Assembly (NCBI GenBank): GCA_030693515.1 | Contig: JAUYAK010000057.1 | Span: forward strand, 1-64,000 | Length of the DNA: 64,000 nucleotides | Direction: 5' to 3' | From: Opitutaceae bacterium | Lineage (GTDB): Bacteria; Verrucomicrobiota; Verrucomicrobiia; Opitutales; Opitutaceae | Part shown: positions 3,182-49,852 of the stretch, one piece after another | Position numbering within the stretch: position 1 is the stretch's first letter | How the letters are laid out: the number at the start of each line of letters is the position of its first letter | Notes under the pieces: generated by a model | The model's database searches: none | Seen by the model: only the letters and a program-made list of their open reading frames with translations | Told to the model about the DNA's origin: nothing | Translations under genes and position numbers: made by a program

Positions 3182-3482
3182 CCAGGATGGCGGCACGGAG
3201 TCAGGCGCGGGTAATCAGCCAGGGCAGAGGCGCGCCGTTCACGTCGAGGTCCGGCTTCGTTGTCGAGGTCGGGCGTGGTGTGCCGCGCGGGTAGACACCA
3301 ATCCAGCGGGAGCTGGCGACGATCGAGGAACACGAGGTCGCCGGACGAACGATTTGCTGCACCGTCGTGCCGCTGGCTCCGCCCCGCCTGTTCGCCGAAG
3401 CACTTCAGCAACCGCCCGCGCAACGAACTGTCCGGCCGATTGCTTCGTTGTCCCTGACCTGTTCCTATCCGTGCTTCCCACT
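3182..3482. other. Intergenic stretch with no recognisable gene
   Basis: About 300 GC-rich bases separate the HEPN gene from the GH106-like gene. The GH106-like frame stays open upstream of its chosen start, and a minus-strand frame is also open, but neither shows a recognisable domain. It may be remnant sequence at the edge of the accessory patch. I see no convincing promoter or terminator. Confidence 0.4.
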
Positions 3483-6209
3483 ATGCGTGTGCCCCACTGC
3501 CTGCTCGCCTCGCTGGTCGCGTCTTTCTGCGCGCTGGTGACTGTTCCATCTGCTCTCGCCGCCGATTCCGCCTCCGCGCTCGCCTGGCCCGCGCTCACCA
3601 AGGAAAACAAACCGTGGACCCGCTGGTGGTGGCCCGGCAGCGCCGTGGACAAGGCCAGCCTCACCTGGCAGCTCGAAAAACTCGCGGCCGCCGGTATCGG
3701 CGGCGTCGAAATCACGCCCATCTACGGCGCCAAGGGCGCCGAGGCGCGCTACATCGATTTCCTTTCGCCGAAGTGGATGGAGATGCTCGAGCACGTGGGT
3801 CGCGAGGCCCAGCGCCTCGGCCTCGGCGTCGATATGGCGACCGGCACCGGCTGGCCCTTCGGCGGCCCGTGGATCGATGAGGCCAACGCCCTCAAGCGCG
3901 CTGTGCTCAAGGATGGCAAGATTGTCGGCGAAGCGTCGCGCATGATGGTCAAGCGCGCCGCGCCCGGCGGCGAGGGCCTCGTTGTCGATCCGTTTTCGGT
4001 CGAAGCGCTCCGCGGCTACCTCGCGCCGTTCGACCAGGCGTTCGCCAATTTTCCGCGCGGACTCGTGCGCGGCCAGTTCCACGACTCGTTTGAGTATTTC
4101 AACGCCAGTTGGACGGCCAAACTCCCCGAGGTCTTTCGCGCGATGCACGGCTACGACATCCAGCAGTTCGCCGCGGAGCTTACCACGCGCAACTCCGCCG
4201 ATGTGAAGACCATCGACCGCGACACCCTCGCGCGCATCAAGAGCGACTACCGCGACACCCTCGCCGCCCTGCACCTCGACTACCTCAAGACCTGGGTGAA
4301 ATGGTCGCACGACAAAGGCTGGCTCGTCCGCAACCAGTCGCACGGCGCCCCCGCCAACCTCCTCGACCTCTACGGCGCGGTGGACATTCCCGAGACGGAG
4401 ACCTTCGGCTCCACGCCGTTTCCCATCCCCGGCCTCCGTCGCAATGCCGACGAGATTCGCACCGGCAACGAGCAGGACCTGCCCGAGCCGCTCGTCATGC
4501 GCATGGCCTCCTCCGCCGCGCATGTCATGGGCCGCAAACTCGCCTCGAGCGAGAGCGCCACCTGGCTCCGCGACCACTGGAAGGTCTCGCTCGCCTACGT
4601 GAAGCCGGAGCTCGACAGCATCCTCGTCAGCGGGATCAACCACATTTTCTACCACGGCACCGTCTTCTCGCCGCAGGACGCCGCGTGGCCCGGCTGGCTC
4701 TTCTACGCCTCCACGCAGTTCAACCCCAACAACACGTGGTGGGACGACTTCGGTGCGCTCAACCGCTACATCGCCCGCGTGCAGTCCGTGCTCCAGGCCG
4801 GCCAGCCCGACAACGACATCCTCCTCTACTGGCCCCTCGCCGACGTGTGGGACAACGCCGACGGCCTCGCGAAAATGCTCACCGTCCACGACGTGAAATT
4901 CCTGACCGATCAACCCGTCGGCAAACTTGCGCGAGCGCTGAGCGAGCGCGGCTACCAATTCGACTACATCTCGGATGCGCAGCTCCAGCAGGCAACTTCA
5001 AGCTGGGCGACAATCAAAACTGCCGGTGGCGACTATCGTGCGATCATCGTTCCTAAAACGAGGAAAATGCCGCTCGAAACCCTGCAGTGCCTTCTCGATT
5101 TGGCAGACAAAGGCGGAACCGTGATTTTCATGGAGGATTTCCCTACCGACGTCCCGGGATACGGCCGGCTCGCCGAGCGCCGTGCAAAATTCAAGGAATT
5201 GCTGGCGAGTTGGGAAGATTTTGGTTCGCCAGTGATCGCGCGCGAGACTGGCTGGCGCTCGATGCTGCCCAAGTCACGCCAAAGAGAAATTCTCGGCATG
5301 AATTGCGTAACGATCGTAGATTCCGAAAAGACCTTGCTCACCTTGTTCGAGGAAGATCTGGCAAAGCCATTCGCTCGCGAAGCTGCCGCGGACTTTGGGC
5401 TGTCAGCGATTCGCCGCCGGACTGACCAAGGCCATGATTATTTTCTGACCAATCTGACCGCCAAGTCATTTTCGGGCTGGGTTAAGCTAGGCCGCCCAGC
5501 GAGCAGTGTAGTGGTTCGTGATCCACTCACTCGCAAAAGCGGACTCGGCATTCGTCGAAACGTTTTTCTTCGGCCCGCGCGACCTGAGACAGAAGCATTC
5601 CTTCAAATCGAGGCGGGCCAAAGCTTGTTGCTGAACACGCTCTCAAATGTCGATTTGGACGGTCCACGCTGGTCATACCAGCAGCCCGCCGCCCCACCGG
5701 CCGCCGTCACCGGCCGGTGGTCCATCTCCTTCACCCAAGGCGGCCCCGAACTCCCGCCCGCGCTCACCACGGCCGAGCTGAAATCGTGGACCGAGCTCGG
5801 CGGCGATCCAGCCAAGCTTTTCGGCGGCACCGCGCGCTACCGCCTCGAATTCGACGCGCCCGCCACCAAGGCCGACGCTTGGCTCCTCGACCTCGGCGAG
5901 GTGCGCGAGAGCGCGCGCGTGCGGCTCAACGGCCACGACCTCGGCACCGCGTGGAGCATCCCCTTCCAGCTCCGCTTCGAAGGCGCGTTGCTCAAGCCCA
6001 CCGGCAACGTGCTCGAGCTCGACGTCACCAACCTCGCCGCCAACCGCATCCGCGACCTGGACCAGCGCAAGGTGGACTGGAAAATCATGCGCGAGATCAA
6101 TTTCGTGAACATCAACTACCGGCCCTTCGACGCGAGTGGCTGGCCGCTCACGCCCTCCGGCCTGCTTGGTCCCGTCACACTCACGCCGCTGAGAGCGCTT
6201 GCTCCGTAG
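3483..6209 (+). CDS. Secreted GH106-like glycoside hydrolase (alpha-L-rhamnosidase-type)
   Basis: This 908-residue exported enzyme probably removes alpha-L-rhamnose from polysaccharides or glycosides. ATG 3483 gives a clean Sec signal peptide (about 1-27, ending PSALAA). An N-terminal barrel follows, with the family pattern TRWWWPGSAVDK, GIGGVEITPIYG and DMATGTGWPFGGPW. The C-terminal sandwich has the galactose-binding-like RLNGHDLGTAWSIPF block and ends GLLGPVTLTPL. I did not place the catalytic residues. From about 4985 to 5690 GC falls to roughly 55-60 percent per 60-base line, against about 75 percent on either side, so the gene looks mosaic. The TAG stop is part of a GTAG repeat head (6206-6209). 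Rhamnosidase specificity is inferred from family resemblance. Confidence 0.78.
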   Translation: MRVPHCLLASLVASFCALVTVPSALAADSASALAWPALTKENKPWTRWWWPGSAVDKASLTWQLEKLAAAGIGGVEITPIYGAKGAEARYIDFLSPKWMEMLEHVGREAQRLGLGVDMATGTGWPFGGPWIDEANALKRAVLKDGKIVGEASRMMVKRAAPGGEGLVVDPFSVEALRGYLAPFDQAFANFPRGLVRGQFHDSFEYFNASWTAKLPEVFRAMHGYDIQQFAAELTTRNSADVKTIDRDTLARIKSDYRDTLAALHLDYLKTWVKWSHDKGWLVRNQSHGAPANLLDLYGAVDIPETETFGSTPFPIPGLRRNADEIRTGNEQDLPEPLVMRMASSAAHVMGRKLASSESATWLRDHWKVSLAYVKPELDSILVSGINHIFYHGTVFSPQDAAWPGWLFYASTQFNPNNTWWDDFGALNRYIARVQSVLQAGQPDNDILLYWPLADVWDNADGLAKMLTVHDVKFLTDQPVGKLARALSERGYQFDYISDAQLQQATSSWATIKTAGGDYRAIIVPKTRKMPLETLQCLLDLADKGGTVIFMEDFPTDVPGYGRLAERRAKFKELLASWEDFGSPVIARETGWRSMLPKSRQREILGMNCVTIVDSEKTLLTLFEEDLAKPFAREAAADFGLSAIRRRTDQGHDYFLTNLTAKSFSGWVKLGRPASSVVVRDPLTRKSGLGIRRNVFLRPARPETEAFLQIEAGQSLLLNTLSNVDLDGPRWSYQQPAAPPAAVTGRWSISFTQGGPELPPALTTAELKSWTELGGDPAKLFGGTARYRLEFDAPATKADAWLLDLGEVRESARVRLNGHDLGTAWSIPFQLRFEGALLKPTGNVLELDVTNLAANRIRDLDQRKVDWKIMREINFVNINYRPFDASGWPLTPSGLLGPVTLTPLRALAP

Positions 6210-6228
6210 GTCGGGCTTTACGCCCGAC
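6206..6228 (+). repeat. Single REP-like hairpin with GTAG head
   Basis: GTAG is followed by a 7-bp perfect hairpin, GTCGGGC-TTTAC-GCCCGAC. The TAG of the head is the stop codon of the GH106-like gene. The hairpin could also act as a transcription terminator. A related stem, GGTCGGG/CCCGACC, occurs in the terminator at 36695-36720. Confidence 0.7.
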
Positions 6229-25519: not shown

Positions 25520-25592
25520 GTAGGGGCGCAGTCTTGCTGCGCCCTAGGTTTGCACGCGGATCAGAGAAAGCGCGGCAAGACTGCGCCCCTAC
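25520..25592. repeat. REP-like inverted pair, GTAGGGGCGCAG family
   Basis: The arms (25520-25540 and 25572-25592) match over 21 bases with one mismatch; outer ends are GTAG/CTAC. The left arm alone folds as GGGCGCAG-TCTTG-CTGCGCCC behind the GTAG head. It lies between convergent genes, seven bases after the cytochrome stop. Its first 25 bases are identical to the copy inside the helicase gene at 34440. Confidence 0.88.
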
Positions 25593-32921: not shown

Positions 32922-35579
32922 ATGACGTCGCCGTCCGCACCCACCGCCGCCCCGCTCGCGCCGTTCCGCCTCGCGGATGGCCGGGCGCCGGACGCCGACG
33001 CGGCGCTGGCGCGCTTCCTCGAAGTCTCAGTTGCGCGCGGACTCGAGCTCTACCCCGAGCAGGAAGAGGCCATCCTCGAGCTGTTCGCGGGGCGCAACGT
33101 CGTCCTCAACACGCCCACCGGCTCCGGCAAATCGCTCGTTGCGGCGGCGTTTCACTTCAAGGCCCTCTGCGCCGGCGAGCGCTCCGTTTACACGTGTCCG
33201 ATCAAGGCGCTCGTGAACGAGAAATTCCTCTCGCTCTGCCGCGACTTCGGGCCGGAAAACGTCGGCATGATGACGGGCGACGCCAGCGTAAACCCGCAGG
33301 CGCCCGTCCTCTGCTGCACCGCCGAGATTCTCGCCAACATCGCGCTCCACCGCGGCGCCGAGAGCGACATCCGCGCGGTGATCATGGACGAGTTCCACTA
33401 CTACTCGGACCCTGAGCGCGGCACAGCGTGGCAGGTGCCGCTCCTCACGATGCCGCGTGCGCGTTTCCTGCTGATGTCGGCGACGCTCGGCGCGACGGAG
33501 TTTTTCGAGCGCGAGATGACGCGCGTCACCGGCGCGCCCAGCGTCACCGTGCGCAGCGATCGACGGCCCGTGCCGCTCGAGTTCGAATATTCCGAGGTGC
33601 CTCTCGCGGAGCGCATCGCGGACCTGCTCACGCTCAAGCGCGCGCCGATCTACCTCGTGCATTTCACGCAGCGCGCGGCGAGCGAGGCGGCGCAGGCGCT
33701 GATGAGCCTCACGGTCTGCTCCAAGGAGGAAAAAGCCGCGCTGCAAATCGAGCTGGAGCGCGCGCGCTTCACCAGTCCCTACGGCAAGGAGATGCGCCGC
33801 TGGCTGCGCCACGGCATCGGCGTCCACCACGCCGGCCTCCTCCCGAAATACCGCATCCTCGTCGAGCAGCTCGCGCAAAAGGGCCTCCTCAAAATCATCT
33901 GCGGCACCGACACTCTCGGCGTCGGCATCAACGTCCCGATCCGCACCGTCGTCTTCACGCAGCTCTGGAAATACGACGGCAAGAAGGCCGCGATCCTGGC
34001 CGTGCGTGATTTCCGCCAGATCTCCGGCCGCGCCGGCCGCAAGGGCTACGACGACAAAGGCTACGTGATCATCCAGGCACCCGAGCACGCGATCGAGAAC
34101 AAGCGCGCCGAGGAGAAAGCCGCGCGCGATCCCTCGAAGAAAAAGAAACTCGTGAAGCAAAGCGCGCCTGAGGGCTCGGTCGGCTGGGATGCGAAGACCT
34201 TCGAACGCCTGCGCACCGCGCCACCCGAGGAGCTGCAGTCGCGGTTCGAGGTTTCCCACGGCATGCTGCTGCTGATGCTCAGCCGCGACGGCGACGGCTG
34301 CCGCGCGCTGCAACAGTTGGTCCGCGATTGCCACGAGACCGACCACCGCAAGCGCGCGCACCGCAAGCGCGCCTGGCAGCTCTTCCGCGCGCTCGTTGAT
34401 CGCAAGATCGTGGAGATCACCCCGCGCGATCCGGCAACCGTAGGGGCGCAGTCTTGCTGCGCCCAGGGGACTGCGGAAGCCGGGCGCAGCGAGACTGCGC
34501 CCCTACGACGCAAACTCCGCGTCAACGTCGAGCTGCAGGACGATTTCTCCCTGCACCAGGCGCTCTCGCTCTACCTCATCGACACGCTGCCGCAGCTCAA
34601 CCGTGAGTCACCCGACTATCCGTTCGATGTGCTCACCCTCTGCGAAGCCATCGTCGAGGACCCGGAGGCGATTTTGCGCCGGCAAGTGGACAAGCTGAAG
34701 ACCGCCAAGATGGAGGAAATGCGCGCCGCCGGCATCGAGTATGCGGAGCGCATGGAGAAGCTGGAGCAGATCGAGCACCCAAAGCCGCTGCGCGAGTTTC
34801 TCTACGACACCTTCAAGGCCTTCGCCGCCGCGCACCCGTGGGTCGGCCAGGAGCACGTCCGCCCCAAGTCGATCGCGCGCGAGATGTTCGAGCGCTACCA
34901 GAGCTTCGCCGACTACATCCGCGATTATGGCCTCCAGCGCGTCGAGGGCCTCCTCCTCCGCCACCTCTCGCAGGTCTGGAAAGTGCTCGCGCAAACCGTC
35001 CCCGCCGCCGCCAAGACCGAGGAGGTCGCCGAGATGGAGGACTATTTCCGCGAACTGATCCGCGGCATCGACTCGAGCCTGCTTGAGGAATGGGAGCGCC
35101 TGAAGAACCCGGATCTGGTCGCGGCCGATCAACCCGACAGCGACAAACCCGCGCGCCCCTCCAGCTACGACCTCACGCGCGACGAGGCGGCGTTTCGCCG
35201 GCTCGTGCGCACGACGATCTTCGGCTTCTTGCAAGACGTGACCGCGCGCGATTGGGAAAGCGCCGCCGCGCGTCTCGCGACCGGCGAGGCGGGCAGCACG
35301 GCGGAAGGCGCGCCGCTCTCGCCCGAGGCGAAGCGCATCGAGGCCGCCTTCGCGCCCTACTTCGACGCCCGCACGCGCTTCCGCCTCGATCCCGCGGGCC
35401 GCGCCGCGGACCACACCCACTGGCTCCACGAACCCACCGATCCCGAGTGGGACATCGCGCAGGTGCTCATCGATCCAGCGGGGCTCGACGATTGGGAAGC
35501 GCGGTTCGCGGTGCCGCTCGCCGAGTCCCGCGCGCAACAGCGCGCGGTGGTGCGGTTCGAAACGGTCGCCGCGCTTTGA
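32922..35579 (+). CDS. DUF3516 Ski2-like DEAD/DEAH-box helicase
   Basis: This 885-residue superfamily 2 helicase probably acts on RNA or structured nucleic acid. Motif I is NTPTGSGKS (about residue 64), motif [11 protein letters not shown] (about 155), motif [12 protein letters not shown], and motif [15 protein letters not shown] (about 367). The C-terminal half is the DUF3516 region. A GTAG-type REP pair at 34440-34506 lies inside the coding sequence and is translated (about residues 507-529, including [10 protein letters not shown]) without breaking the frame, between conserved VEITPRD and [13 protein letters not shown] blocks. The extra segment is probably a surface loop. Confidence 0.92.
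34440..34506. repeat. REP-like inverted pair inside the DUF3516 helicase gene
   Basis: The two 25-base arms of the GTAGGGGCGCAG family are complementary with a single mismatch (34440-34464 and 34482-34506). One further flanking C-G pair makes 69 bases (34439-34507), i.e. 23 codons, so the reading frame is kept. The left arm is identical over 25 bases to the intergenic copy at 25520. Confidence 0.9.
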
Positions 35580-42955: not shown

Positions 42956-43792
42956 TTAAGCCGCGGTGGCCCGCTCGGCTCGTTTCTTCTCGATGCGCGT
43001 GGCGACGAAAATCGCGATCTCGTAGAGCAGGTAGAGCGGCGCCGCCAACAGCGATTGCATGAACGGATCCGGCGTCGGCGTGACGATGGCCGCAATGATG
43101 AAGATCACCACGATGGCGTGGCGGCGGTATTTGCGCAGAAACGCCGTGGTGATGATGCCCAGCCACACCAGGAGCACGAGCACGAGGGGAAACTCGAACA
43201 CCGCCCCCACCCCCACAACAATCCATGTAAGCATCGAAAAATAGCTGCCGGCGGTCCATAGCGGCCGGTAGTTCAGGTCGGTGTTAAGCCAGCCCGCAAA
43301 ACTGAGCGTGCCGGGCATCAGGATAAAAAACGCAAAGCTCGCCCCGATGAGGAACAGCACCATCGCCGAAGCGCACATGGGCACGATCACCTTCGTCTCT
43401 CGCTCCGTCAGGGCCGGAGAGACGAACTGAGCGATGAAAAACAGGATGAACGGCGAAGCGAGCCCGAGGCCGCCAAACACGCACATCTGGATAAGAACAT
43501 TAAACACCTCCAAGGGAGAGTTCGTGATTAATTCGACCTTTATGTCCGGCGCGCCGGAATTGGCGGAAGTGAGGGGCCAGAGCAGGGCGTCGTGGAATCG
43601 TTTGTAGAACGAACCCACCAGCACGGCGAAGATTACAAACACCACCACGCTCTTGATCAGCGTGCCGCGCAGCTCCTCCAGGTGCTCCCAAAAGCCCATC
43701 GACTTCTCCCGGAGGCGCGCGAGCGGGCTGAGTGCGGAATCGTCATCGGGAGTGTGGTTGGGTGCGTCGCTCACAGGAAAAGGAGGGCGCAT
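42956..43792 (-). CDS. tatC: Sec-independent protein translocase TatC
   Basis: This 278-residue inner-membrane protein is the core receptor of the twin-arginine translocase. It has the usual six spans and the conserved front MGFWEHLEELRGTLIKS with the functionally important Glu, followed by the periplasmic FYKRFHDALLWPL region. The N-terminal 30 residues are an acidic extension. It serves the Tat substrates visible here (NIPSNAP at 30367, NHL protein at 35638). TatA/TatB are not in the window. Confidence 0.95.
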   Translation of the reverse strand: MRPPFPVSDAPNHTPDDDSALSPLARLREKSMGFWEHLEELRGTLIKSVVVFVIFAVLVGSFYKRFHDALLWPLTSANSGAPDIKVELITNSPLEVFNVLIQMCVFGGLGLASPFILFFIAQFVSPALTERETKVIVPMCASAMVLFLIGASFAFFILMPGTLSFAGWLNTDLNYRPLWTAGSYFSMLTWIVVGVGAVFEFPLVLVLLVWLGIITTAFLRKYRRHAIVVIFIIAAIVTPTPDPFMQSLLAAPLYLLYEIAIFVATRIEKKRAERATAA

Positions 43793-43838: not shown

Positions 43839-43914
43839 GTAGCGGCCGGGCGTCCCTTGCCTGCCGGTTCTTGGGATTGGCCATCCTCGGCGGGCAGGGA
43901 CGCCCGGCCGCTAC
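43839..43914. repeat. REP-like inverted pair, GTAGCGGCCGGGCG family
   Basis: The 19-base outer arms (43839-43857 and 43896-43914) are perfect complements, with GTAG/CTAC ends. It lies in the divergent space between tatC (minus) and the HIT gene (plus), the only REP here that follows no stop codon. Same family as 31196-31267. Confidence 0.88.
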
Positions 43915-44009
43915 TCGCCCTCCCCTTTCGGCTCCGACCGCGGCTTTGACTTTGCCCCGGCCCCGGCTTCTTGTCCCGGTCCTTTTCGCCCGCCGATCCT
44001 CCCGCCCAA

Positions 44010-44549
44010 ATGCCGCAGCTCCACCCTTACTGGCGCATGGAATACATTGAGGCACCGCGCCTGCCCGCCGGCATGAAGCGACCCTTCACCGAGCTGCCCG
44101 CCCTCGGCGACGACCGCGCGGCGCTCATCGTCCACCGCTCCGCGCTCAGCTATCTCGTGCTGAACCGCTTTCCCTACAACCCCGGCCACCTCCTCGCCGT
44201 CCCTTTCCGGGAGGTCGACGATTTGCCCGAGCTCACCGTCGCCGAGCGCGCCGATCTGATGGAGGAAATGATCCTCGGCCAGCGGCTCCTCACGGCCGCG
44301 CTCCGCCCCGATGGCTTCAACGTGGGCTTCAACCTCGGCGCCGCCATCGCCGGCGGCAGCATCGCCCACCTCCACGGCCACATCGTCCCGCGCTGGAATG
44401 GCGACACCAACTTCATGCCCGTGCTCGGCCAAGTCCGCATCCTGCCGCAGGCGCTGGAATCGACGTGGGCGAAACTCACCGCGGCCGTCGCAACACTGAA
44501 ACCGGAAGGAAACAAAAAACGGAAAGCGAAAAAAAGAAAGCGGAGCTAA
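44010..44549 (+). CDS. HIT-family nucleotide hydrolase/phosphorylase
   Basis: This 179-residue HIT protein carries the triad SIAHLHGHIVPRW (HxHxHxx) that binds the nucleotide alpha-phosphate. It also has RFPYNPGHLLAVPFREV upstream and NFMPVLGQVRILPQ downstream, as in diadenosine tetraphosphate phosphorylase-like HIT proteins. A Lys/Arg-rich tail (about 162-179, KKRKAKKRKRS) is unusual. First gene of the housekeeping run leading into phoH, 71 bases before it. Confidence 0.88.
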   Translation: MPQLHPYWRMEYIEAPRLPAGMKRPFTELPALGDDRAALIVHRSALSYLVLNRFPYNPGHLLAVPFREVDDLPELTVAERADLMEEMILGQRLLTAALRPDGFNVGFNLGAAIAGGSIAHLHGHIVPRWNGDTNFMPVLGQVRILPQALESTWAKLTAAVATLKPEGNKKRKAKKRKRS

Positions 44550-46857: not shown

Positions 46858-49299
46858 ATGTCCGTCCGCAACCAGTTCAAACTCCTCGTCGGCGGCCTCG
46901 CGGCCCGGCGCACGCGCACGGTGGCGCCGGTCGCGCAGTCGGCCATGCGGGAGTTTCTGGACCGGTCGCGGCTCATCGCGGCGCTCATCTTCTTTTTCAC
47001 CGTCGCCGCCATCGTCGTCATCAGCTCGGCCGGCATCAGCACCGTGGACGCCCCGATCGCCGTCGATCAGGTGGCGACGAGCCGCATCACCGCCCTCGCC
47101 CCTTTCCGCTACGAGAGCGCGGAGCGGACCCGCGTCGCGCGCGAACAGTATCTGGACGGACTGCCGCCGATTTACCGGCTGGAAGTCGAACCCCTGCGCC
47201 GCATCGAGGCGGCGGCCCGCACGCTGCTCGGCCAGTTGGTCGCGTTTGAGACGGCCGGACCGGGCAACGTCTCCCCCCTCATCGGACGCCGCGCCGAACT
47301 CGCTCGCATCGCCGACACGTTCAACTCCCACAGCGCCACCTACCACGCCACCCCGGAGGACATCGCCGCCCTCCTCGCCCCGCTCGATCCCAAGGCGCGC
47401 GCGGAGCTGTTCGACAGCGGGCTGGCCACGCTGCGCGATCTGTATGCCCAGGGCATCAGCGATGCCGCGCTGGGCGGCATACAGCCCGGCAGCTCGCTCG
47501 TCTTCCAAATCGCGCGGCCCGACGGCGAGGTCGCGCAACGGCCCGTGCAGACGCTGGAGGAGGCGCTCACCGCGCTCCGGGTGAGCCTGGCTGTCGGCGC
47601 CGCCCCCCGGCCGGCGGTGCAGGCCGTCTTCCGGCTTTTCCGCTTCGGGCTGGTGCCCAATATCGTCTTCGACCGCGAAGTCACCGCCACGCGCCATGCG
47701 GCGGCGGCCGAACGGGTGAAGCCCGTCGTCGTGGGCGTCGCCCGCGGCCAGACGATCGTCGAGGCCGGCGCGCGCGTGACGCGCGAACAGCACGAGATGA
47801 TCACCGCCCACCGCGAGCACCTGCGCACGCATGGCGACGCCGATGTCAGCGAGGGCCTCACGCTTTTCGGCCGCATGCTGCTGGTGCTCGCGATGGTGCT
47901 GGCCTCGCTCATCTACATCCGCATCGAGGATCCTGAGACGCTGCGCAGCAACGTCCGCTGCGGGCTCCTCGCCCTCGTCGTCATCGCGAATCTGGCGCTC
48001 GTGCGCGCCAACTATTCGCTCGGTGGCGCGGAGTTCTTCCTGCGCGACAGCGCCTGGGCCTCCAGCCTGCCCTACGTGGCGCCCACGGCCTTTGCCCCGC
48101 TCATCATCGCCATCCTCATCGACGCCGGCTCGGGCATCTTCATGGCGCTGCTGATCTCGATTTTCACCGGCGTCATCTACGGCAACCGCCTCGATCTGCT
48201 CGTGCTCACGTTCCTCGCCTCGCTCGTGACGATCTACTTCGGGCGCGACGTGCGGCGCCGGGCCCTCGTGGTCCGCGCCGCCGGCGCAGGCGGGCTCACG
48301 GTAGCCACGTTTGCGGCGCTTATCGGCATCGCGGATCAGACGCCGTTTGACACCCTGGTCCGGCAGATGGCCGCGGGCCTCGGCACCGGTCTGCTCACCG
48401 GCATCGGTGTCGTGGGCCTGTTGCCAGTATTAGAGTCGCTGTTCCAGCGCACGACTGACATCACCCTGCTCGAGCTGACCGACTACAACCACCCGCTCCT
48501 GCGCCGCATGCAGCTCGAGGCGCCGGGCAGCTACCACCACTCGCTCGTCGTGGCCCAGCTCTCAGAAAACGCCGCCAACGCCGTCGGCGCCAACGCCCTC
48601 GTGGCCCGCGCCTGCGCCCTGTTTCACGACATCGGGAAAATCAACGCCCCGCAGTTCTTCGGCGAAAACGCGCGCCATGGCGCCGACGCTCATGCCGGCC
48701 TTCCGCCGGAGGAATCCGCCCGCCACATCCGCCAGCACGTGCCCGACGGCGTCGAACTCGCGCGCAAGCACCGCCTCCCCCGCGCCGTCGTGGACGTAAT
48801 CCAGCAGCACCACGGCACGACGCTCGTCCGCTATTTCTACCAGCGCGCCGTCGAGCACTCGCGCGCGCCCTTCCCGATTCGCGCAGCGGGCGAGCGGAAA
48901 AAAACGGCCGCGCCGGACAGCAAACCCGCCGATTCGCCTTCGCCCCCGAGCTCACCCCCGCCTTCGCCGGATGCCGCCGCCTTCCGCTACGACGGACCCC
49001 GGCCCCAGACGCGCGAGAGCGCCATCATCTCGCTCGCCGACGGCGTCGAGGCCACCACCCGCTCGCTTCGCCAAATCGACGCCGAGAGCCTCCACGAAGT
49101 CATCAATCGCACGTTTGCCGATCGCATCGCCGACGGCCAGCTGGACGATGCACCGCTCACGCTTGAGCAGCTCACGCGCGTCAAGAACAGCTTTCACTTC
49201 ACGCTGCTCAACATGCTCCACGCCCGCGTCGCCTATCCTGACGCCGGCACGAGCGCGACGCCGCCCGACGCCGGAACCCGGAAGTCCGATGCCCGTTGA
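46858..49299 (+). CDS. pgpH: 7TM-HD phosphohydrolase (PgpH-type c-di-AMP phosphodiesterase)
   Basis: This 813-residue membrane protein has a first span (about 40-60), a periplasmic 7TMR-HDED sensor (about 65-330), a seven-span block (about 340-520) and a C-terminal HD domain. The HD residues are GSYHHSLVV (about 557) and FHDIGKINAPQFF (about 590). Homologues degrade cyclic di-AMP. A low-complexity Pro/Ser-rich loop (about 680-705) sits inside the HD domain. It overlaps ybeY by 11 bases. Confidence 0.92.
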   Translation: MSVRNQFKLLVGGLAARRTRTVAPVAQSAMREFLDRSRLIAALIFFFTVAAIVVISSAGISTVDAPIAVDQVATSRITALAPFRYESAERTRVAREQYLDGLPPIYRLEVEPLRRIEAAARTLLGQLVAFETAGPGNVSPLIGRRAELARIADTFNSHSATYHATPEDIAALLAPLDPKARAELFDSGLATLRDLYAQGISDAALGGIQPGSSLVFQIARPDGEVAQRPVQTLEEALTALRVSLAVGAAPRPAVQAVFRLFRFGLVPNIVFDREVTATRHAAAAERVKPVVVGVARGQTIVEAGARVTREQHEMITAHREHLRTHGDADVSEGLTLFGRMLLVLAMVLASLIYIRIEDPETLRSNVRCGLLALVVIANLALVRANYSLGGAEFFLRDSAWASSLPYVAPTAFAPLIIAILIDAGSGIFMALLISIFTGVIYGNRLDLLVLTFLASLVTIYFGRDVRRRALVVRAAGAGGLTVATFAALIGIADQTPFDTLVRQMAAGLGTGLLTGIGVVGLLPVLESLFQRTTDITLLELTDYNHPLLRRMQLEAPGSYHHSLVVAQLSENAANAVGANALVARACALFHDIGKINAPQFFGENARHGADAHAGLPPEESARHIRQHVPDGVELARKHRLPRAVVDVIQQHHGTTLVRYFYQRAVEHSRAPFPIRAAGERKKTAAPDSKPADSPSPPSSPPPSPDAAAFRYDGPRPQTRESAIISLADGVEATTRSLRQIDAESLHEVINRTFADRIADGQLDDAPLTLEQLTRVKNSFHFTLLNMLHARVAYPDAGTSATPPDAGTRKSDAR

Positions 49300-49852
49300 G
49301 CCCACCGCTCCGCGCGAAGTCGCGATTGCGTGCCACCACCCGCGTCTCCGCCTCGACCGCCGCGCGGTCAAACGCGTCATCCATGTCCTCGACGCAGAGT
49401 TTCCGATTGCGGCCGCCGGCCGTCGAAAACCGAAATTTCCGGCCCCGCCACCCGGCGAACTCTCGCTCGTCTTCCTCACCGACGCCGCGCTCGCGCAGCT
49501 TCACGCCGATTTTCTCGCCGACCCGACGATCACCGACGTGATCACGTTTGAGGGGAATCCCGCGCTCGGCACCACCGGCGAGATCTGTGTCTCCGCCGAC
49601 GCCGCTCTGCGGCATGTAGGGCCGCCGCTCGCCGGCGCGCCACGCCGGTCCATGGCACGGCGACTAACCCCGGCCGTTCAATTGAAATTCGCGCGTGAAC
49701 TCACGCTCTACCTCGTCCACGGCTGGCTCCACCTCGCCGGTTACGATGACCTCGTGCCCGCAAAAAAACGAGCGATGCGCCGGGCCGAGGCACGCGCGAT
49801 GGAACTCTTGCGCTGCCACCGCAGTCTGCCGCGTTTCACCTTCCGACCATGA
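49289..49852 (+). CDS. ybeY: rRNA maturation endoribonuclease YbeY
   Basis: This 187-residue single-strand RNase processes 16S rRNA ends and supports ribosome quality control. The zinc site LVHGWLHLAGYDD has two of the three usual His; the third, GYDH in E. coli, is Asp here. ELSLVFLTDAALAQLH and ITDVITFEGNP are family-typical. Between ICVSADAALRH and ARELTLYLVHG there are about 20 extra residues (GC-rich DNA near 49617-49680). ATG 49289 lies within the end of pgpH; the stop overlaps the next gene (ATGA). Confidence 0.9.
   Translation: MPVEPTAPREVAIACHHPRLRLDRRAVKRVIHVLDAEFPIAAAGRRKPKFPAPPPGELSLVFLTDAALAQLHADFLADPTITDVITFEGNPALGTTGEICVSADAALRHVGPPLAGAPRRSMARRLTPAVQLKFARELTLYLVHGWLHLAGYDDLVPAKKRAMRRAEARAMELLRCHRSLPRFTFRP

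Follow-up and report, generated by a model that had tools for sequence, protein, structure and literature searches.

Different REPIN families appear, from comparison of sequences, to have entered the same loop of a DUF3516 helicase independently in several Opitutaceae lineages. One of these elements lies in the window analyzed here, a 64,000-nucleotide stretch of DNA from an Opitutaceae bacterium. The element, a REPIN at positions 34440-34506, consists of two inverted GTAG REPs that form a non-autonomous hairpin, and it sits within the open frame of the helicase gene. We consider it quite probable that a REP-associated tyrosine transposase (RAYT) moved this REPIN into a tolerant helicase loop and that the recurrence reflects survival at permissive loops. 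The initial annotation had foreseen the translated REP pair, which was borne out as 67 nt of inverted REPs in an open frame of 885 aa. It had not foreseen the different REPINs at the same point in other species. The features discussed are as follows, with the genome of the window designated G000 and that of its sister species G018.

32922..35579, + strand: host gene, an 885-aa DUF3516 protein, Ski2/Mtr4-like DExH helicase, frame intact
34410..34508, + strand: expanded linker of 33 aa, residues 497-529, between a helix and the KLRVNVEL strand
34440..34506, + strand: REPIN, inverted pair of GTAG REPs, 67 bp, residues 507-529 (22 codons and the first base of R529)
34440..34464, + strand: left REP, GTAGGGGCGCAGTCTTGCTGCGCCC
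34465..34481, + strand: spacer of 17 nt, the hairpin tip between the REPs
34482..34506, - strand: right REP, one change compared to the left REP
25520..25592, + strand: intergenic REPIN of the same family, 73 bp, with an orthologous copy in G018

The element reads GTAGGGGCGCAGTCTTGCTGCGCCC, then 17 nt, then GGGCGCAGCGAGACTGCGCCCCTAC. Both arms start with GTAG followed by an 8-bp stem and a 5-nt loop, as in GTAG REPs, and the inverted orientation of the 25-bp arms makes one long hairpin of the 67 nt, as in REPINs. The predicted DNA fold was -35 kcal/mol (z -9.2) with no shuffle as stable, and the predicted RNA fold was -59.8 kcal/mol (z -10.3), again with shuffles never reaching that stability. 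The left arm was confirmed to be identical to the intergenic copy at 25520-25544.

The 25-mer was searched with up to 3 mismatches; the 6.65-Mb genome gave 22 matches and the reversed control none. Family REPs numbered 22 in G000, 22 in G018, 101 in G002, and 34 in G005, while none were found in most of the other relatives searched. Copy numbers of 22 here and 101 in G002 with 0 in controls are those of a dispersed, multi-copy family. A chance palindrome or an assembly artifact could be proposed instead, given that GC-rich genomes are rich in short palindromes and that about 10 two-mismatch matches to the 12-mer are expected by chance in the window. However, 22 copies of a 25-mer, hairpin z-scores of -9 to -10, homologous flanks on both sides, and a remnant shared by G018 all speak against it. 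The explanation is refuted by the number of copies together with the remnant in G018, and we give it practically no probability.

The helicase protein matched DUF3516 over residues 386-879 (E=1.5e-151), and DExH helicase domains were also matched. A profile built from 34 orthologues matched yeast Mtr4/Dob1 (E=1.8e-69, covering both RecA domains) as well as Ski2 (E about 1e-69). An AlphaFold2 model (pLDDT 82) was compared with structures of Mtr4, Ski2, and Hel308; the best match had Z=30.1 and an rmsd of 3.6 over 575 residues (7s7b_A). Both sequence and fold, then, match Mtr4/Ski2. No papers on DUF3516 were found in the literature collection searched. Residues 508-525 of the model had pLDDT under 50. 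The insert is thus a low-confidence loop in the model, and because the order is helix 474-493, strand 497-499, loop, and strand 532-534, it is probably the wing of a winged-helix domain. In Mtr4 and Ski2 the arch domain is likewise inserted in the winged-helix domain, and its entry point might or might not correspond to the insert site, as the sequence alignment to Mtr4 ends before the winged helix and the structural comparison yields ranges only. The insert would be translated as a floppy extra loop and is probably neutral for the host.

Linker length was compared among orthologues, mostly from draft genomes. The linker had 33 aa here against a modal length of 10 aa, with 9-15 aa in most species and 23-48 aa where a REPIN was present; these lengths cover readable linkers, as those of several distant orthologues were unreadable with the pattern used. 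As the initial annotation had anticipated, most orthologues lacked residues 507-529 at this point in the linker alignment. Its description of a 69-base element of 23 codons held in part. The net gain of the linker over the modal length was 23 codons, although sister linkers vary, but the element has 67 nt as set by the family consensus, one above a multiple of three, and the frame stays open only with added flank bases. The C at 34439 and the G at 34507 are a chance complementary pair outside this consensus. What the 23 whole codons measure is thus the net expansion of the linker rather than the element itself. REPINs in DUF3516 genes measured 67, 56, 52, 85, and 56 nt, and those in two other genes 68 nt each. 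None of these 7 lengths is a multiple of three, and compensating changes of flank bases must therefore accompany each insertion. We sought a clean empty allele in close relatives that would reveal the exact junctions and any target duplication, and none was found; in each of the nearest relatives the site is occupied by another REPIN.

The insertion had been proposed to be recent on the basis of the identical left arm, and this was rejected. The DUF3516 genes of G000 and G018 are 88.7% identical in DNA, yet the outer 19 nt of the right REP persist at the orthologous place in G018, and seven other family REPINs occupy orthologous positions in the two genomes. Between the shared REPINs, identity was 96.0% for the arms (a value biased upward, as elements were found by arm similarity), 90% for the spacers, and 82.8% for the flanks. 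Because the remnant and the orthologous REPINs are shared with G018, the identical arm indicates that REP arms change slowly, and not that the insertion is young. Insertion age can be judged only poorly from arm identity, and the conservation of arms could be due to selection on the hairpin.

In G018, another REPIN type is joined directly to the 19-nt right-arm remnant of the family found in G000. In G016 this second type is found at the same left junction, and G001 also has it. The simplest history would place this second type first, in the ancestor of the four genomes (G000, G018, G016, and G001). The family of the window's element would then have joined it in the common ancestor of G000 and G018, each of which would later have lost part.

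A benefit to the host could also retain such an insert. One such benefit would be a slowing of ribosomes within the winged-helix domain by the mRNA hairpin of -60 kcal/mol; another would be RNA or DNA handling altered by the lengthened loop. The strong predicted RNA hairpin, the lesser change of shared arms than of flanks (96.0% vs 82.8%), and the repeated gain at one place would all fit. However, most orthologues manage without the insert, most of the REPIN was lost in G018, and arm conservation is seen in intergenic copies as well and is biased by the way copies were found. The inserts are also read in different frames in different genes, so no peptide is conserved, and a favored reading frame was rejected likewise. 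We regard host benefit as very unlikely. It seems improbable to us too that REPIN insertion keeps lengthening a few orthologous Opitutaceae loops to the selected benefit of the host, such as ribosome slowing or a changed wing, instead of leaving just tolerated debris.

GTAG-bounded REPINs were counted in the 47 orthologous genes. All 7 were in this one linker and 0 elsewhere, a count that varies with the inverted-repeat score cut-off; other inverted repeats numbered 10, close to a codon-shuffle expectation of 7. The occupied linkers belong to G000, G018, G016, G017, G029, and two Lacunisphaera metagenome-assembled genomes (MAGs), and in G001 the linker REPIN runs across a contig break. Several REP types are represented. 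The type in G018 and G016 has 50 and 14 genomic copies, respectively, and G017 has its own REP family, present in its DUF3516 gene and in about 237 genomic copies. With a linker of 48 aa taken as the target, uniform insertion over the protein would give this distribution with a probability of about 1e-9 for seven events and 1e-5 for five independent ones. A gene tree built without the linker needed 5 presence changes, at least 4 of which are forced by well-supported branches.

More than one scenario could account for the recurrence. A target preference of the RAYT or the hairpin, whether for existing REPs or for the DNA of the site, could bring REPINs repeatedly to one place. The G018 REPIN abuts the remnant of another, and G001 has two REP types around the site; REPs nested near REPs would fit such a preference. 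However, G017, G029, and the two Lacunisphaera genomes, whose neighbors have short linkers, carry other REP types with no evident common target sequence. The recurrent sites in ybeY, the molybdopterin oxidoreductase (MopB) gene, and the ABC ATPase gene are also variable loops, and some of the inserts there are not GTAG REPs. Target choice is therefore unlikely in our judgment, and survival at permissive loops probably accounts for the pattern. In the scenario of survival, the REPIN would have been mobilized in the past by a RAYT, and one copy would have entered the surface loop of the helicase, read here as the winged-helix wing, in an ancestor shared with the sister species. The loop may tolerate additions, and small flank changes would have kept the frame open, with the hairpin carried in the protein since then. 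More than one REPIN family would have been layered on the same spot in this clade. An insertion at any other place in the gene would destroy enzyme function and be lost, hence the recurrence at the loop.

We searched for a transposase belonging to the family. In G018, a Y1-transposase match at C24:224848-225069 has a family REP on either side, at 224739(+) and 225335(-), so that a RAYT flanked by the same REP is present in the sister genome, albeit with a split, frameshifted reading frame (L254 1540-2160, on G018:C24). In the window's own genome, none of the seven Y1-transposase matches was flanked by the REP of the DUF3516 insert. An active family RAYT in this genome was rejected, as the Y1 matches with clear REPs are flanked by other REP types. 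The RAYT of G017, flanked by that genome's own REP, passed the NCBIfam REP_Tyr_transpos cut-off. The transposase of the family is decaying in G018, and because no family RAYT was found here and that of G018 has a split frame, the family looks like a relic in this genome. Its REPINs were probably moved in the past by the family RAYT.

Element positions were within genes in 4 of 15 cases in this genome compared to 0 of 28 in G002, where 28 positions were sampled by the same rule (Fisher p=0.011). This excess is consistent with an old population here as against copy-rich G002. The four intragenic positions are in the genes for the DUF3516 helicase, a molybdopterin oxidoreductase, a sugar-ABC ATPase, and a UvrA-like ATPase, the last labeled from our reading of the sequence where Pfam gives only ABC_tran. 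The REPINs of the MopB and ABC-ATPase genes are in frame and common to this genome and G018. Other relatives have different inserts in those loops, several of which are inverted repeats by eye.

GTAG-tagged REP dimers in frame within genes were published in 2013 (Di Nocera et al., PMC3733652), and the REPIN of the DUF3516 gene therefore belongs to a known kind. In that survey, more than half of intragenic GTAG REP inserts coded for 20-30 aa, and Opitutus terrae, a relative, had the largest number of intragenic GTAG REPs, some of them in RNA helicase and uvrA genes. Two Xanthomonas recB genes had different REPs at about the same site. Whereas one species pair shared a site there, several REP types, many species, and layered remnants are involved here. 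As in the REPINs of Bertels and Rainey (2011, PMC3116915), the element is an inverted REP doublet with a single hairpin and a spacer less conserved than the ends, and the family has a RAYT flanked by the same REPs, here in a relative. In contrast to those REPINs, which were described from extragenic space, this one is intragenic; no RAYT of its family was found in this genome, and the one in G018 is frameshifted.

The likeness to in-frame palindromes of Rickettsia (RPEs) that the initial annotation had drawn is also drawn in the 2013 survey and stands. RPEs are palindromic repeats in frame in unrelated genes (review PMC10969869), and the DUF3516-gene REPIN is likewise inserted in frame in a protein gene. 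However, RPEs have a reported length of about 150 bp, and R. conorii RPE-4 and RPE-6 are of the CGTC REP type (PMC3733652, PMC10969869). Judged against these published descriptions, the element has neither a length of about 150 bp nor a CGTC tag and is not of the RPE sequence type; it has 67 bp and a GTAG tag, and the reading frame differs among its copies.

What is new is that a single linker has been occupied repeatedly, and in layers, in many species, together with the contrast between old and copy-rich REP populations. Different mobile hairpins marking the same permissive loop across lineages constitute a natural record of the insertion tolerance of a protein, and loops of YbeY, the molybdopterin oxidoreductase, and the sugar-ABC ATPase show signs of the same pattern. 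Whether in-frame REPs persist because coding constraint blocks their removal becomes a testable question.

Other repeats were observed in the window and in the orthologous genes. A second in-frame REP, of another family (GTAGGGCCGCCGCTCGCCGGCGCGC), is at 49616-49640 in ybeY (49289-49849, + strand), where its translation falls in a loop of the endoribonuclease YbeY; it is absent from G018, and in G001 that loop holds a different REPIN. In the MopB orthologues L293, L294, and L297 (G016, G017, and G008), the loop holds AT-richer in-frame inverted repeats resembling CCGAAATCCGAAATC. The sugar-ABC ATPase of G017 (L278) has an in-frame GTCGGG...CCCGAC inverted repeat in the linker between its two ATPase domains, which is a further repeat class using the same ABC-ATPase loop. 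In the DUF3516 gene of G028 (L046), another palindromic repeat, AAGGCGGCGCGGACATTCC...GGAATGTCTGTGCCACCTT, occupies a second stretch of the coding sequence, at about 87% of its length. An intergenic REPIN with perfect 19-nt arms (GTAGCGGCCGGGCGTCCCT) is at 43839-43914, between a tatC-like gene (42956-43792, - strand) and a HIT-like gene (43971-44549, + strand), and resembles the REPs around the RAYT in L058. The REP at 6206-6228 (GTAGGTCGGGCTTTACGCCCGAC) provides, by its GTAG, the TAG stop of a 951-aa ORF at 3354-6209, a role of GTAG REPs described in PMC3733652.
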